A program made the position numbers and the translations under genes. Under the pieces are notes generated by a model. It was not told the DNA's origin. It ran no database searches and saw only the letters and a program-made list of their open reading frames with translations. DNA of 13,930 bases from Dysgonamonadaceae bacterium (GTDB lineage Bacteria; Bacteroidota; Bacteroidia; Bacteroidales; Azobacteroidaceae): the NCBI GenBank assembly GCA_031256015.1, contig JAIRRK010000023.1:1-13930 (forward strand), in the 5' to 3' direction. Every line of letters begins with the position of its first letter. Positions within the stretch are counted from its first letter, which is position 1. Below, piece after piece: positions 3,080 to 9,940 of this stretch.

Positions 3080-3110
3080 TTTGCTTGTATGAAAAAACTC
3101 GTTATCTTTG
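3080..3110 (+). promoter_or_regulatory. Promoter of the leu operon
   Basis: TTTG at 3080-3083 and TATCTTTG at 3103-3110 are separated by 19 bases, a full match to the Bacteroidetes primary sigma factor consensus TTTG-N19-21-TAnnTTTG. Transcription should begin a few bases after 3110, about 10 bases before the leader ORF. This is the best promoter in the window. Confidence 0.85.
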
Positions 3111-3126
3111 CACCGTTAAATAAAAA

Positions 3127-3222
3127 ATGATTTCAATGCAAAGCAGTATAGCATATATTATTCTCCTCGGTTTAGGTATTCTCTTGTCGCAAGACAAAAG
3201 GAAGCGGGCGTGGTATATGTAA
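3127..3222 (+). CDS. Ile/Leu-rich attenuation leader peptide (31 codons)
   Basis: The first ORF after the leu promoter codes for 31 residues. Residues 8-20 (IAYIILLGLGILL) hold four Ile and five Leu and no Val; a charged tail (SQDKRKRAWYM) follows. Three of the five Leu codons are CTC, a codon I find in none of the 34 Leu codons of leuA. Codons Ile18-Leu19-Leu20 (3178-3186) form the 5' arm of a hairpin, and the codons around Lys26-Arg27 contain the antiterminator segment. The position before a terminator and leuA fits a regulatory leader. A second ATG at 3136 is an alternative start that keeps the Ile/Leu run. It could also be read as a small membrane protein, since the run is hydrophobic, but the RNA structures favour a leader. 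Confidence 0.82.
   Translation: MISMQSSIAYIILLGLGILLSQDKRKRAWYM
3179..3208 (+). promoter_or_regulatory. Attenuator: pause hairpin and antiterminator segment
   Basis: Bases 3179-3188 pair with 3193-3202 around a GCAA tetraloop (five pairs, one C-A mismatch, then four pairs including one G-U). Its 3' arm overlaps GGAAGCGGG (3200-3208), which can instead pair with CTCGCTTCC (3253-3261) in the terminator: nine pairs with one G-U. Hairpin versus antiterminator, and antiterminator versus terminator, are therefore mutually exclusive, as in the 1:2, 2:3 and 3:4 segments of enteric attenuators. Confidence 0.75.
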
Positions 3223-3246
3223 AACAATAACAAAAAATATGATTGG

Positions 3247-3281
3247 GCCTTTCTCGCTTCCGAAGAGAAAGGCTTTTTTTT
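3247..3281 (+). terminator. Intrinsic terminator of the leu attenuator
   Basis: GCCTTTCTC (3247-3255) pairs perfectly with GAGAAAGGC (3265-3273) over a 9-base loop, followed by eight Ts (3274-3281). The T-tract directly touches the leuA ATG at 3282, so this terminator must be bypassed to express the operon. Its 5' arm and loop contain the target of the upstream antiterminator segment. Confidence 0.9.
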
Positions 3282-4802
3282 ATGAACAATTTTAATATGA
3301 ACAATATGTCAGACAGATTATTTATTTTCGACACTACGTTGAGAGACGGAGAACAGGTTCCGGGCTGTCAGTTGAATACCATTGAAAAGATACAGGTAGC
3401 TCAAGCTTTGGAAAACTTAGGCGTAGATGTTATTGAGGCCGGATTCCCGGTCTCAAGTCCGGGCGATTTTAATTCAGTGGTGGAAATTTCTAAAGCGGTG
3501 ATTTGGCCGACTATTTGTGCCTTAACGAGAGCCGTAAAGAAAGATATTGACGCCGCCGGCGAAGCATTGAAATATGCAAAAAGAAAAAGAATTCACACGG
3601 GAATAGGAACATCACCTTATCATATTCAATATAAATTCAATTCAACGCAGGATGAAATATTGGAACGTGCAGTCGCTTGTGTGAAATATGCAAAAAAATA
3701 CGTCGAAGATGTGGAGTTTTATTGCGAAGACGCCGGTCGAACCGACAATATTTATTTGGCTAAAGTAGTTGAGGCTGTTATCAAAGCGGGAGCGACCGTC
3801 GTTAATATACCGGATACAACCGGTTATTGCCTGCCGACCGAATACGGTGAAAAAATAAAATTTCTGATGGAAAATGTAAAAGGAGTTCATCATGCGGTTA
3901 TCTCTACTCATTGCCACAATGATTTGGGAATGGCAACCGCCAATACAATGATGGGAATATTAAACGGTGCCCGCCAAGTTGAAGTAACAATCAATGGAAT
4001 AGGAGAGAGGGCCGGTAATACTTCCTTGGAGGAAGTTGCGATGATTTTGAAAAGTCACAAAAATCTGAATATCGATACGAATATCAATACAAAACATATT
4101 TATCCGATTAGTCGAATGGTTTCCGGTTTGATGAATATGCCCATACAACCGAATAAAGCCATTGTCGGAAGAAATGCTTTTGCTCACTCTTCCGGGATTC
4201 ATCAGGACGGCGTATTGAAAAATCGGGAAAGCTACGAAATTATTGATCCGAAGGATGTGGGAATCGACGATAATACCATCGCTTTGACAGCCAGAAGTGG
4301 TCGTGCCGCACTAAAACACAGATTAAATGTTTTAGGTGTCGATTTAAATCAAGAACAATTGGATAAAGTGTATGAAAATTTTCTTAAATTAGCAGACAAA
4401 AAAAAGGATATAAACGACGACGATGTCTTGATGTTAGCCGGAAAAGACCGCTTGGATTCTCAAAGAATCAAATTGGAATATCTGCAAGTTACATCGGGAG
4501 TGGGTTTGCAACCGGTAGCTTCGGTATGTCTGAATATTGCCGGTGAAAAATTTGAAGCCGCCGCCACCGGAAACGGTCCTGTCAACGCGGCCATTAAAGC
4601 CGTAAAACAGATTATTCATCGTCAGATGATTATTCAGGAGTTTCTGATTCAGGCAATCAATAAAGGAAGCGATGATATCGGTAAAGTTCACATGCAAGTA
4701 GAACATAACGGTATCAATTACTACGGTTTTTCCGCTAATACCGACATCGTAGCAGCTTCAGTGGAAGCTTTTATAGATGCAATTAATAAATTTGTAAAAT
4801 AA
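3282..4802 (+). CDS. leuA: 2-isopropylmalate synthase LeuA
   Basis: Condenses 2-oxoisovalerate with acetyl-CoA, the committed step to leucine. From the ATG at 3282 it has 506 residues, a normal length. The TIM-barrel catalytic domain shows [10 protein letters not shown] (16-25), [10 protein letters not shown] (54-63), CEDAGRT (148-154), the metal-binding HCHND (210-214) and NGIGERAGN (238-246). [13 protein letters not shown] (302-314) lies in the linker region. The C-terminal 110 or so residues are the LeuA regulatory domain that binds leucine in relatives, with NGPVNAA (431-437). In-frame ATGs at 3297 and 3306 are possible starts; the last would give [11 protein letters not shown], a very typical N-terminus. 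A TTG at 3243 lies inside the terminator and is rejected. It is the first gene of the operon after the attenuator, with leuC 44 bases downstream. Confidence 0.96.
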
Positions 4803-4846: not shown

Positions 4847-6238
4847 ATGAAAACATTATTTGATAAAATATGGGATAGCCATGTTGTTTCTACAGTAGAA
4901 GATGGGCCTACCCAACTATACATCGATCGGATGTATTGCCATGAAGTGACAAGTCCTCAGGCATTTAACGGATTACGAAAAAGAGAATTGAAAGTTTTTC
5001 GTCCGGAAAAAATAACTTGTGTGGCGGATCATAATATTCCTACAATCAATCAGGAGCAGCCGATACAAGACCCTGTATCAAAAAATCAGGTAGATGCTTT
5101 GGGTAAAAATGCGGAAGAATTTGGATTGACTTATTATCCGATTGGGCATGAAAAAAGTGGAATCGTTCATGTGATAGGTCCGGAAACAGGACTTTCTCTG
5201 CCGGGAATGACGATGGTGTGCGGTGATTCGCACACGTCTACACACGGAGCAATGGGTGCCGTAGCATTTGGAATCGGAACCAGTGAAGTGGAAATGGTTC
5301 TGGCTACACAATGTGTTTTTCAGTCGAAACCGAAAACCATGCGTATTTCAGTGAAAGGAAAACTTAAACCTTTCGTAACGGCAAAAGACATGGCTTTGTA
5401 TATTATTTCAAAGATGACTACCGGAGGAGCAACCGGGTATTTTGTCGAGTATGCCGGAGAAGCCGTGAAGAGTTTATCTATGGAAGGCCGTCTGACTCTT
5501 TGCAATCTGTCTATCGAAATGGGAGCAAGAGGAGGAATGATAGCTCCGGATGAAGTGACTTTCGAATACGTGAAAGGAAAAGAATTTGCTCCAAAAGCGG
5601 AAGCTTGGGAAAAAGCTTTGGCTTATTGGAAAACTTTGAAAACGGACGAGGGAGCCTCGTTCGATAAAGAAATTACGCTGAATGCAGAAGATATTGAACC
5701 CATGTTGACTTATGGTACCAATCCGGGGATGGGAATGAGTATTAACGATAGAATTCCGACTCCGGATACGATTGAAGAATCGGGTAGAAAATCTTTCCTA
5801 AAATCCTTGAACTACATGGGATTCCTGCCGGGAGAAAAATTAATGGGCAAACCGGTCGATTATGTTTTTTTAGGCAGTTGCACCAATGGACGTATTGAGG
5901 ATTTCAGGGCATTTGCTCAAATAGTGAAAGGGAAAAGAAAGGCCGATCATGTTGTTGCCTGGTTGGTGCCCGGCTCCCGGATGGTTGTTCAACAAATCAA
6001 AGAAGAAGGTATTGATAAAATTTTGGAAGACGCCGGATTTGAATTGCGTCAACCGGGATGCTCCGCTTGTCTGGCAATGAACGATGATAAAGTGCCTGCC
6101 GGAAAGTATGCCGTTTCAACCTCAAACCGGAATTTTGAAGGAAGACAAGGACCCGGTGCGAGAACTATTTTGGCCGGACCGTTGCTTGCTGCAACAGCTG
6201 CAATTACAGGACGGATTACAGATCCGAGAGAACTATAA
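4847..6238 (+). CDS. leuC: 3-isopropylmalate dehydratase large subunit LeuC
   Basis: 463 residues, the usual length for the aconitase-family large subunit that isomerises 2- to 3-isopropylmalate with LeuD. The three cluster ligands are present: Cys345 in GSCTNGR (343-349) and Cys405 and Cys408 in [10 protein letters not shown] (403-412). [16 protein letters not shown] (123-138) and [13 protein letters not shown] (224-236) are further family motifs, and [13 protein letters not shown] (427-439) is the conserved C-terminal segment. The enzyme needs a 4Fe-4S cluster and acts in the cytoplasm. With CimA in the same operon it should also handle citramalate on the way to 2-oxobutyrate. The gap to leuA contains a short direct repeat (ACATATCAA twice); leuD follows after 49 bases. 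Confidence 0.97.
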
Positions 6239-6287: not shown

Positions 6288-6881
6288 ATGGAAAAATTTG
6301 TCACATTAACAAGTACCATTGTTCCGTTACCGATGGAAAATGTCGATACGGATCAAATTATACCTGCCCGATTCTTAAAAGCTACATCCAAAGACGGTTT
6401 TGGAGACAATTTATTTAGGGATTGGCGGTACGATAAAAATGATCAACCGATACAGTCTTTTGTATTGAATAATCCAAAATATAAAGGAGAAATTTTGGTG
6501 GCCGGAAAAAATTTCGGTAGCGGATCCAGTCGGGAACATGCTGCGTGGGCGATTGCCGGCTACGGATTTAAAGTCGTCGTATCCAGTTTTTTTGCCGATA
6601 TATTCAAAAATAATGCAATGAATAATTTTTTGTTGCCGGTAGTCGTTTCCGAACGTTTTTTGAAAGAAATTTTTGAAAGCGTGGATAATGATTCGAACAT
6701 GACACTGACAGTAAATTTGGAAAATCAAACATTGACCAATAACGCTACCGGACATTCTGAAACATTTTCGATTAATTCGTATAAAAAAGAATGTTTTTTG
6801 AAAGGATTCGATGACATTGATTACTTATTAAATAATAAAGATAAAATTGAACAATACGAAAAAAAACGATACATCGGATAA
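6288..6881 (+). CDS. leuD: 3-isopropylmalate dehydratase small subunit LeuD
   Basis: 197 residues, full length for LeuD, the swivel-domain partner of LeuC. Seen are NVDTDQIIPARFLK (18-31) and GKNFGSGSSREHAAWA (73-88), the substrate-binding Ser/Arg loop of the aconitase small subunit. The stop codon ends one base before the next gene's ATG, so the two are probably translationally coupled. The 49 bases before it are A-rich, with CACATTAA twice in a row and no Shine-Dalgarno sequence. Confidence 0.96.
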   Translation: MEKFVTLTSTIVPLPMENVDTDQIIPARFLKATSKDGFGDNLFRDWRYDKNDQPIQSFVLNNPKYKGEILVAGKNFGSGSSREHAAWAIAGYGFKVVVSSFFADIFKNNAMNNFLLPVVVSERFLKEIFESVDNDSNMTLTVNLENQTLTNNATGHSETFSINSYKKECFLKGFDDIDYLLNNKDKIEQYEKKRYIG

Positions 6882-6882
6882 T

Positions 6883-8400
6883 ATGAATCGAAATATTAAA
6901 TTATTAGACACTACGTTGAGAGACGGTGAACAGACTTCAGGGGTTTCGTTTGCTTCTTCTGAAAAGTTGCACATCGCTCGCCTTCTTTTGGAAGACTTGA
7001 ATGTCGATCGGATAGAAATTGCTTCCGCTAAAGTATCCGAAGGCGAATTTGAAACCGTCAAAAAAGTAGCTAAATGGGCTGAAGCTAATAATTATATAGA
7101 TAAAATAGAAGTTTTGGGGTTTGTAGATGGAGATCTTTCGTTGAAGTGGATTCAAAGAGCCGGATGCAAAGTAATGAATCTTTTGTGCAAAGGCTCATTG
7201 AAGCATTGTGAAGATCAATTGAGAAAATCTCCGGAAGAACATCTGTCGGATATAAAAGTTGTTTTGCGGGAAGCAGAGAAAAAAAATATTTCAATCAATA
7301 TTTATTTAGAAGACTGGTCAAACGGAATGTTACACTCCAAAGATTATGTCTTTTTTCTTGTAGATAATCTGAAAGATACTCAGATTAAACGCTTTATGCT
7401 TCCGGATACTCTCGGGATTTTGAATCCGATTGATACGGCAAAATTCTGTAGGGAAATGTTGGAAAGGTATCCGAATTTACAATTCGATTATCATGCTCAC
7501 AATGATTATGATTTGGCTGTCGGAAATGTTTTTGCTGCGGTTAATGAAGGAATATCAGGTGTCCATACCACAATAAACGGCTTGGGCGAAAGAGCGGGAA
7601 ATGCGCCTTTAGCCAGCGTTGTTGCGATATTGCATGATCAGTTGAATATCAAAACCAACATAGTGGAAAAAAACCTGAATAAAGTAGGACGAATAGTTGA
7701 ATCTTATTCGGGAATGCGTATACCCAATAATCAACCGGTAACGGGAGATAATGTTTTTACTCAATGTGCGGGTATTCATGCCGACGGAGATAACAAAAAC
7801 AATCTTTATTATAATGACCTGCTTCCGGAAAGATTCGGACGAGCACGGGAATATGCTTTGGGAAAAACTTCCGGAAAATCCAATATCAAAAAAAATCTGG
7901 ATACAATCGGAGTTGAATTGGATGAAGATTCTATGCTGAAACTGACAGAACGAATCATTGAATTAGGCGATAAAAAAGAAATTGTAACTCAAGACGATTT
8001 GCCGTATATTATTTCGGATGTTATGCATACAAATACGGAAGATAAGATAAAAATGATTAATTATTCTTTATCTTTGACACAAGGATTGCGTCCGACGGCC
8101 ACGGTCCGAATTGAAATTGAAGGTAAAGAATATGAATATACAGCTCCCGGCGACGGTCAATATCATGCTTTTAGTAAAGCTTTATGGAAGATTTACGACA
8201 ATTTGGGTAAAGCCAAACCGGAATTACGAGATTACAATGTTGCCATTCCTCCCGGAGGACGAACCGATGCGCTCGTTCAAACTACGATAACTTGGAGTTA
8301 CAAAGAAAAAAAATTCAAAACCCGAGGATTGGACGTGGATCAGATGGCAGCTGCTATAAAAGCCACAATTAGAATGTTAAATATGATTGAAAATATGTAA
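6883..8400 (+). CDS. cimA: (R)-citramalate synthase CimA
   Basis: Condenses pyruvate with acetyl-CoA to (R)-citramalate, the threonine-independent entry to isoleucine. From the ATG at 6883 it has 505 residues; a TTG extension to 6847 overlaps leuD and is rejected. The catalytic domain shows [11 protein letters not shown] (7-17), the metal-binding HAHND (204-208), NGLGERAGN (232-240) and CAGIHADGD (295-303); a LeuA-type regulatory domain follows from about 385. It resembles the Leptospira enzyme as I remember it, including VSFxxSEKL, LNVDRxEIASA and YLEDWSNG. The residues reported there to select pyruvate (Leu81, Leu104, Tyr144) align with Leu78, Leu101 and Tyr141 here (offset 3). That makes citramalate synthase much more likely than a second isopropylmalate synthase. 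Product identity is inferred, not tested. Confidence 0.88.
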   Translation: MNRNIKLLDTTLRDGEQTSGVSFASSEKLHIARLLLEDLNVDRIEIASAKVSEGEFETVKKVAKWAEANNYIDKIEVLGFVDGDLSLKWIQRAGCKVMNLLCKGSLKHCEDQLRKSPEEHLSDIKVVLREAEKKNISINIYLEDWSNGMLHSKDYVFFLVDNLKDTQIKRFMLPDTLGILNPIDTAKFCREMLERYPNLQFDYHAHNDYDLAVGNVFAAVNEGISGVHTTINGLGERAGNAPLASVVAILHDQLNIKTNIVEKNLNKVGRIVESYSGMRIPNNQPVTGDNVFTQCAGIHADGDNKNNLYYNDLLPERFGRAREYALGKTSGKSNIKKNLDTIGVELDEDSMLKLTERIIELGDKKEIVTQDDLPYIISDVMHTNTEDKIKMINYSLSLTQGLRPTATVRIEIEGKEYEYTAPGDGQYHAFSKALWKIYDNLGKAKPELRDYNVAIPPGGRTDALVQTTITWSYKEKKFKTRGLDVDQMAAAIKATIRMLNMIENM

Positions 8401-8402
8401 TT

Positions 8403-8870
8403 ATGGAAATGTATTTAAAGAATGCCAATAGAAAATTGACAATTGCTCTTGTTGCCCATGACAGGAGAAAAGCCGATATGGTTGAATGGGCCGTTTTTAA
8501 TGCGGATACTTTATCTAAGCATACACTTGTTTGTACCGGTACTACCGGAGGATTGATAGAAAAAGCTTTTCAGGAAAAAGGAATTGAAGCCGAAATTATT
8601 AAAATGAATTCAGGTCCGTTGGGCGGTGATGCGGAGATTGCCGCCATGGTCGCAAGGCATCAAGTTAACTTGGCTATCTTCTTGATAGACGATTTGAATG
8701 CTCAACCTCATGAGGCCGATATTCAGATGCTTCTTCGCCAATGTCGTGTACACAATGTACCGATTGCTTGTAATCGCTATAGTGCCGACTTAATGATAAC
8801 CAGTAGTTTATGGGAAAATGATGAATATACGCCATCGATTCCTCAATATATAAAATTTGAAAGAGAATAA
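8403..8870 (+). CDS. mgsA: Methylglyoxal synthase MgsA
   Basis: 155 residues, the normal length. The family enzyme converts dihydroxyacetone phosphate to methylglyoxal and phosphate, a bypass of lower glycolysis. Compared with E. coli MgsA, the active-site pattern is kept: ALVAHD (15-20), CTGTTGG (44-50), SGPLGGD with Asp76 (70-76), [12 protein letters not shown] with Asp96, His103 and Asp106 (95-106), and [10 protein letters not shown] (121-130). By alignment these correspond to E. coli Asp71, Asp91, His98 and Asp101. It starts two bases after cimA and its stop shares a base with the leuB ATG (TAATG), so it is tightly bound into the operon. Nothing in leucine or isoleucine synthesis needs methylglyoxal, so its place here is unexplained. 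Confidence 0.92.
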
Positions 8871-9940
8871 TGGAACTTAAAATAGCTGTATTACCGGGAG
8901 ACGGAATCGGCCCGGAAATCGTTAAACAAGCTTTGGATGTGACTAAAGCTGTTTGTAAGAAATTTAATCATTCATTAACTTATCGAGAGGCACTTGTCGG
9001 AGCCGTTGCTATTGATGCGGGAGGAGATCCTTATCCGCAAGAAACGCATGAGTTATGTATGAATTCGGATGCCGTTTTGTTCGGAGCCATCGGTTCTCCG
9101 AAGTACGATAATAATCCTTCCGCAAAAGTTCGTCCGGAACAGGGATTGCTTGCCATGAGAAAAAAACTGGGATTGTATGCCAATATTCGTCCGATAACAA
9201 CTTTTCCTTCTTTGATTCATCAATCACCCCTTCGTTCCGAATTAATCGAAGGAGCCGATTTTGTGTGTATTCGGGAACTTACCGGAGGTATTTATTTCGG
9301 GCGTCCTCAAGGCAGAAGCGAAGACGGACAAGTAGCGTACGATTCTTCGGTTTATACCGTTGAAGAGATAGACAGAATTGTCAGGTTGGCTTACGATTAT
9401 GCAATGAAGCGGAGAAAAAAATTAACCGTTATCGACAAAGCGAATGTTTTGGCAACTTCTCGTTTGTGGCGTGAAACGGCTCGAAAAATAGAAAAAGAAT
9501 ATCCGGAAGTAGAAACCGAATATATGTTCGTGGATAATGCGGCAATGCAAATTATTCAATGGCCGAAACGTTTCGATGTGATGGTAACGGAAAATATGTT
9601 CGGAGATATTTTAACGGATGAAGCTTCTGTCATAACCGGTTCATTGGGAATGTTGCCTTCGGCTTCAATCGGTATCCATACGTCGGTTTTTGAGCCTATT
9701 CACGGATCGTATCCGCAGGCAGCCGGAAAAAATATAGCAAATCCTTTGGCAACGGTGCTTTCCGCCGCATTGATGTTTGAATATGCTTTTAATTTGCATA
9801 AAGAAGGACAAATTATCAGAGAAGCCGTTAATGCGTCCATACAACAAGGAATTGTTACCGAAGATATTGCCGAAAACGGAAAAGCGTATAAAACCTCCGA
9901 AGTAGGAGCGTGGATTACGAATTATATTTTTTCATTATGA
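8870..9940 (+). CDS. leuB: 3-isopropylmalate dehydrogenase LeuB
   Basis: 356 residues, the usual length, an NAD-dependent decarboxylating dehydrogenase. Seen are [10 protein letters not shown] (8-17), the substrate-binding [21 protein letters not shown] region (88-108) with Arg97 and Arg107, Arg135 in [12 protein letters not shown], the catalytic Lys190 in IDKANVL, Asp222 in FVDNAAMQ, Asp246 and Asp250 in [10 protein letters not shown], and the NAD-binding [19 protein letters not shown] (275-293). It completes leucine synthesis and probably also oxidises 3-methylmalate from the citramalate route. The ATG overlaps the mgsA stop by one base. The order leuA-leuC-leuD-cimA-(mgsA)-leuB puts it last of the pathway genes. 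Confidence 0.97.

Follow-up and report, generated by a model that had tools for sequence, protein, structure and literature searches.

Why a short ORF packed with isoleucine and leucine codons stands before leuA in this window (the whole 13,930-nucleotide stretch of DNA analysed here; its parts placed by coordinate below are on the forward strand), and whether it senses both amino acids, is the question raised by this locus. Very probably, the region 3080-3281 attenuates transcription of the leuA-leuC-leuD-cimA-mgsA-leuB operon by a ribosome-mediated mechanism that responds to shortage of charged Leu-tRNA and Ile-tRNA, a reading drawn from sequence comparison and folding models; what the sequences and folds themselves show is the set of parts, pairings that exclude one another, and conservation among relatives. 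The window comes from a 1.64-Mb genome bin of Bacteroidales (81.6% complete), and the relatives of its LeuA among the best matches listed belong to Bacteroidales, including records of Symbiothrix and Azobacteroides, which are termite-gut symbionts.

All parts proposed in the first-pass annotation, which had described a complete attenuator sensing Leu and Ile, fit within 230 bases upstream of leuA. A promoter-like sequence (3080-3110) consists of TTTG (3080-3083), a 19-nt spacer and TATCTTTG (3103-3110); it is taken as promoter-like by comparison with the Bacteroidetes consensus. As had been described, it is followed by a 31-codon leader ORF (3127-3222) with the Ile/Leu-rich product MISMQSSIAYIILLGLGILLSQDKRKRAWYM and the stop codon TAA at 3220-3222; no Shine-Dalgarno-like sequence was seen by eye upstream of its start at 3127. 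An ATG-started ORF with at least nine Ile/Leu per 13 residues appears in one of 2000 dinucleotide shuffles of 3110-3240. Folding places a protector (pause) hairpin at 3176-3205, so that the hairpin originally given as 3179-3202 is present and its extent slightly wider; it comprises the pairs 3179-3182/3199-3202 and 3184-3188/3193-3197 and two outer pairs, and its 5' arm indeed coincides with the Ile18-Leu19-Leu20 codons (3178-3186) plus the next two bases. The 5' segment of the antiterminator, or A-box (GGAAGCGGG, 3200-3208), is complementary to the 3' segment, or T-box (CTCGCTTCC, 3253-3261), which overlaps the 5' arm and loop of the terminator; all nine pairs noted earlier are found, one of them being G-U. 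In the folded antiterminator (RNA from 3200), seven of the nine pairs are accompanied by further short helices, with -19.3 kcal/mol. The intrinsic terminator (3247-3281) is the perfect nine-pair stem reported previously (3247-3255/3265-3273), followed by eight T (3274-3281), with a fold energy of -16.0 kcal/mol. This is the arrangement of classical attenuators: a short ORF rich in codons for the products of the pathway lies between promoter and gene, an intrinsic terminator lies between the ORF and the gene, and the antiterminator is exclusive with both the terminator and the protector hairpin.

State-by-state folds agree with the switch first proposed, in which a stalled ribosome favours the antiterminator and a ribosome at the stop favours the terminator. 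When the leader is free from 3175 on, the minimum consists of the protector hairpin and the terminator (-26.5 kcal/mol); when the RNA is hidden upstream of a point within 3178-3200, the antiterminator becomes the most stable fold (-25.1 to -19.0 kcal/mol); and when it is hidden upstream of 3210, 3220 or 3233, comparable to a ribosome at the stop, the minimum is the terminator (-16.0 kcal/mol). The free-energy gap between antiterminator and terminator in these equilibrium folds is about 3 kcal/mol, which counts against the model. In the predicted mechanism, transcription would start near 3117, and the leader ORF would be translated. With enough Leu and Ile, the ribosome would reach the stop at 3220 and cover 3200-3208, the terminator would form and transcription would end at the T run; with charged Leu- or Ile-tRNA in short supply, the ribosome would stall in codons 11-20 and cover the 5' arm of the protector, leaving 3200-3208 free to pair with 3253-3261 and allowing read-through into leuA. 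An untranslated leader would adopt the protector hairpin and terminator as the default. The scheme assumes that transcription and translation are coupled in Bacteroidota.

The element was sought at the best 80 of 539 confirmed LeuA loci and in the window (81 loci, single ones cited by L numbers), of which L005, L008 and L055, with fewer than 130 bases upstream, were set aside, leaving 78 testable loci. An Ile/Leu-rich leader ORF followed by a terminator is found at 60 of the 78, 53 of them identified by an automatic screen that includes the window and seven by eye; the automatic pick at L036, with a terminator 357 nt from leuA, was spurious and was dropped. Six of the loci added by eye (L010, L011, L023, L072, L074 and L080) had failed the automatic terminator rule and, together with the 53 screened ones, form the alignment A1 (n=59); the seventh, L032, has Val and Leu codons and is outside A1. 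Two loci retain remnants, namely a leader without a terminator in L018 (dropped) and a terminator without a leader in L004, and the leader-terminator pair is absent, by screen and by eye, at 16 of the 78, including L016, where a terminator-like hairpin lies 3' of a tRNA-like stretch. The pattern that the first-pass annotation had named as contrary to attenuation, that is, relatives keeping leuA and losing the ORF or compensatory changes, is not what is seen: the 60 loci keep both ORF and terminator, and all three helices contain double-sided changes. Five loci that lack the attenuator before leuA (L063, L065, L069, L070 and L079) carry a promoter-like motif and another kind of leader, for which no Rfam match was found; L065 and L069 have in common a GGTAAGAATCAAAA..GCCCATGA stretch at the gene start, and L079 has a similar one.

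In the 59 aligned rows, the antiterminator is paired in 80.7% of cells, with double changes at eight of nine pairs, the terminator in 91.1% (six of nine) and the protector in 82.8% (three of seven). The respective covariation scores are 0.227, 0.250 and 0.245, each reached by 0 of 500 shuffles, counts that are not probabilities because the aligned sequences are related, and the score of each helix exceeds those of all its slid versions; the pair types of the antiterminator are reached by 12 of 500 shuffles. The protector helix is the weakest of the three and otherwise appears ordinary: its count of double-changed pairs is reached by 285 and its pair types by 231 of 500 shuffles, two of its slid versions have more double-changed pairs, and the protector segments reach a mean fold z-score of only -1.7. 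MAFFT set the A-boxes of Parabacteroides one column off in A1, so that antiterminator and protector pairing is probably understated there.

The pairing between the A-box and T-box of the same locus has a mean score of 16.7, compared to 9.3 (sd 0.38) when the left regions are shuffled and 13.9 (sd 0.35, highest 14.8) when T-boxes are swapped between loci and the best A-box is sought anew for each swap; none of 500 swaps reaches 16.7. An earlier swapped-partner control with a fixed A-box (11.7) was too lenient and is superseded by the latter. Matched changes include GGAAGCG/CGCTTCC in the window, GGAAGTG/CACTTCC in Bacteroides, GGTAGTAAG/CTTGCTACC in L077 and GTAGTAAG/CTTACTA in L058. The codon arm pairs with at least three A-box bases in 55 of the 59 rows, and four rows show no such sequestering. 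Nine rows have their best A-box match at a position other than the expected one; in the other 50, the A-box starts in leader frame 0, 1 and 2 in 18, 27 and 5 cases, respectively. The whole A-box is translated in 15 of these, the stop interrupts it in 12, and in 23 the stop precedes it or lies within its first bases. The leader stop lies from -12 to +28 nt of the A-box start in these 50 loci, so that a terminating ribosome would cover the A-box or nearly so.

A covariance model of the element (R1) was searched in the genome of the window, in 198 genomes of the order and in the phylum. In the own genome it finds two clear places, leuA (76.9 bits) and a site on contig C123 (39.5 bits) before a gene identified as IlvD (NCBIfam, 1068 bits). 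This ilvD element (L149, G000:C123:11400-15500, core 1008-1103) has the same mutually exclusive hairpins, with fold energies of -12.5 for the protector, -14.0 for the antiterminator and -11.5 for the terminator; its antiterminator pairs GAGAAAGG with CCTTTCTC, and its leader peptide is MQNSNLHSPIIVSNILLVLQQR. Within the order, R1 has a match at E up to 0.01 in 72 of the 198 genomes, the weaker ones being probably noise. The best 30 matches fetched precede leuA (23), ilvD (6) and a glutamate-synthase-like gene (1, class-II glutamine amidotransferase by Pfam), with leuA and ilvD recognised by N-terminal similarity; six of the 30 hold a core identical to a training row, and the remaining 24 divide into 17, 6 and 1.

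The leader codons change with the gene. When the leader is taken as the ORF from the first ATG after the TAnnTTTG motif (found at 55 of 81 leuA and 16 of 58 ilvD loci), Val makes up on average 2.5% of residues in the 55 leuA leaders compared to 18.9% in the 16 ilvD leaders (p 4e-10, for sequences that are not independent); the rule selects a different frame at L035, L041 and L042 and admits some ORFs that are not leaders, and all rows were kept. In these three loci, the first ATG after the promoter opens an overlapping second short ORF in a frame other than that of the Leu/Ile leader, and this ORF is ATGAGCAATG in L035 and L042. A separate screen of the 58 ilvD loci for Ile/Leu/Val runs with a terminator is passed by 25, every one with at least two Val; four others have no gene start found and one has too little sequence, and among 13 failures inspected by eye, eight have a promoter directly before ilvD and two (L169 and L176) are false negatives of the screen, with a leader present. 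Many ilvD loci of the window's own family lack the element in this screen. The choice of leader codons, Leu/Ile before leuA with Val in addition before ilvD, favours specificity for the amino acid, and the paralogous element with Val codons would control ilvD in the same genome.

This specificity also bears on the idea that the real signal is general translation stress, i.e., any slow or stalled ribosome (e.g., under an antibiotic), rather than Leu and Ile as such. A stall anywhere ahead of codon 20 would release the A-box, and multi-signal uORFs of such a kind have been described (PMC12121999), but the codons favour specificity and we consider stress improbable as the signal proper; it could hold together with amino acid sensing. 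Quite unlikely as well is that the terminator is an ordinary one that sets a basal level, with the short ORF raising leuA translation by reinitiation and no amino acid being sensed. Leader ORFs are commonly found near genes, reinitiation has been proposed for many bacteria including Bacteroidetes (PMC4833913), and leuA starts at 3282, not far beyond the stop at 3220; however, reinitiation leaves unexplained why the antiterminator and protector helices covary, why the A-box persists in every reading frame and why Val is enriched before ilvD, and relatives differ widely in the distance to the gene, with 19 to 257 nt from terminator end to leuA anchor (L036 left out). Least probable of all is a riboswitch or protein-binding leader that senses an amino acid or other ligand directly, with the ORF incidental: the leader is structured and has a terminator and an antiterminator, but the conserved core is small, the loops vary, the codons follow the regulated gene, and no Rfam family matches the window or the leaders of L022, L037, L048 and L060 at gathering score.

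The preferred reading, attenuation by a ribosome sensing Leu and Ile, leaves one conserved feature to consider. A moderately conserved GGTATGTA-like stretch, here GGTATATGTAA (3212-3222), shows 0.4 to 1.0 bits at +4 to +10 on the 3' side of the leuA A-box in the alignment of relatives and also follows the A-box in some ilvD elements; no consistent pairing or coding was seen for it. Hairpin-stabilised polymerase pause sites are located 3' of a hairpin, like this stretch after the protector hairpin, and by this analogy it is possibly a candidate RNA polymerase pause site; shared ancestry alone could explain its conservation. Many leuA elements read GAG-nnn-GG-TATGTA, and the ilvD elements read GAG-(AAA, GAA or AAT)-GG with CC-(TTT or ATT)-CTC in the terminator arm, TATGTA following the motif directly in five of 23 printed ilvD elements. 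A wider reading, for and against which we find the case evenly balanced, is that Bacteroidales possess their own paralogous family of branched-chain amino acid attenuators on a single RNA scaffold (GAGnnnGG-TATGTA, the terminator arm holding CCnnnCTC) that would be reprogrammed by codon swap (Leu and Ile at leu-cimA; Ile, Leu and Val at ilvD) and would carry, immediately 3' of the protector hairpin, a conserved signal for polymerase pausing, which would imply synchronisation of ribosome and polymerase in a phylum without Shine-Dalgarno-led initiation, and that this family has been dismantled in some termite-gut symbiont lineages. The promoter lies directly at leuA in L006 and L012 (Symbiothrix) and L036 (Azobacteroides), and also directly at the gene in L013, and a terminator is retained just 3' of the promoter, with no leader, in L004 (leuA) and L216 (ilvD); other records of Symbiothrix and Azobacteroides (L011, L014, L021 and L045) retain the leuA element. 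Constitutive synthesis for the host is a possible reason for the loss.

The operon itself suggests why both amino acids would be read. The best NCBIfam models identify the window genes as trmB, apbC/mrp, leuA, leuC, leuD, cimA-like, methylglyoxal synthase, leuB, tldD, tldE-like and apbE, with apbC, cimA, tldD and apbE below the curated cutoffs and tldE assigned by eye. The 2-isopropylmalate synthase gene leuA (3282-4802, start at 3282 or 3306) is followed by leuC (4847-6238), leuD (6288-6881), the citramalate-synthase-like gene (6883-8400), a methylglyoxal-synthase-like gene, mgsA (8403-8870), and leuB (8870-9940). The best model for the 6883-8400 protein is Leptospira CimA (645 bits, cutoff 950), and the next best, 2-isopropylmalate synthase models, score at most 331 bits. 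Of 20 regions from the order, 18 hold a leuA-leader match, and all 18 have the order leuA-leuC-leuD-cimA, with leuB following within the region in 14; mgsA inside the leu operon occurs in only one of the 18 other leuA operons fetched. Citramalate synthase together with LeuBCD yields 2-oxobutyrate for Ile. CimA is named as an alternative first step (PMC9026213). One operon would serve Leu and Ile, with the cimA-like product as a putative citramalate synthase; since both pathways would share LeuBCD, the operon would supply precursors for each amino acid, which would explain why the leader reads the two together.

Beyond the own genome, the phylum search yields weak matches only (best 41 bits, E 7.9e-5), which overlap with noise in AT-rich genomes and are therefore not claimed as the same family. 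Some of these matches sit behind other leader peptides that fit their gene, e.g., WWW or WWWW before trpE (L124 and L135, Pfam domain), II runs before branched-chain aminotransferase-like genes (L122, Pfam; L121, by eye) and an acetolactate synthase small subunit-like gene (L131, Pfam), and TIIITIIITT before an aspartokinase-like gene (L130, Pfam). Short Cys/Met-rich ORFs precede sulfur and methionine genes in L120, L141, L136 and L144: MICCNNCMM before PAPS reductase, CTCMCMCMMCT before a Cys/Met-metabolism enzyme and CTCC before a carbonic anhydrase-like gene (all Pfam), and MCC..M..M before an ABC ATPase (by eye). From their sequences, these are possible Cys/Met attenuators.

Against Rfam with E up to 10, the leader region gives 14 sub-threshold matches to unrelated families (best E 0.12), and the T-box leader model has no match to the window at gathering score or at E up to 10. 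The Bacteroid-trp element (RF01692), presumably a trp operon attenuator, is not among the leader-region matches, its best match in the own genome lying elsewhere with 30 bits (cutoff 49). A published table includes this element among the probable cis-regulatory RNAs found in Bacteroidetes (PMC2864571). The Leu leader listed as RF00512 (PMC3766115) has no match in the window at gathering score and is absent from the list obtained with E up to 10. For Flavobacterium psychrophilum, 'strong clues' for leader peptide attenuation before amino acid biosynthesis operons are reported, the family-conserved elements named in the relevant passages being pheA, hisG, ftsY, acsA, alaS and rimP, with no leuA element among them (PMC9723704). 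In Bacteroides thetaiotaomicron, 5' UTR sORFs reminiscent of leader peptides are described, in a main text where leucine, leuA and isoleucine do not occur (PMC7366714). In the literature searched, partly in excerpts and with Lyubetsky 2007 and Lopatovskaya 2010 outside its scope, an attenuator before leuA or ilvD in Bacteroidetes is nowhere described. The mechanism is classical, and the leuA family seems undescribed in Bacteroidetes. That branched-chain amino acid genes of Bacteroidales are widely subject to leader-peptide attenuation, as the comparative evidence indicates, bears on a published proposal of a possible origin of such attenuators in gamma-proteobacteria (PMC3766115). The attenuator would be a point at which gut bacteria control amino acid synthesis and, given that it works only if a ribosome follows RNA polymerase closely, would offer a convenient reporter of the coupling between transcription and translation in this phylum.

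Among the closest known systems is the enteric leu attenuator (leuL, RF00512), located upstream of leuA, with a leader peptide of Leu codons and the protector/antiterminator/terminator logic. The window leader has in common with it this logic, the Leu codons and the position before leuA, and differs in that it reads Leu and Ile in blocks, whereas enteric leuL reads mainly Leu; in addition, the promoter is of another type and the operon of the window includes a cimA-like gene. In Staphylococcus aureus, a leucine-rich ilvD attenuator peptide, i.e., an Ile/Leu-rich leader with a terminator, has been described upstream of the branched-chain operon (PMC5794164). That system belongs to another phylum and another operon, and its proposed antiterminator pairs with the poly-U tail, whereas the antiterminator in the window pairs with the 5' arm and loop of the terminator.
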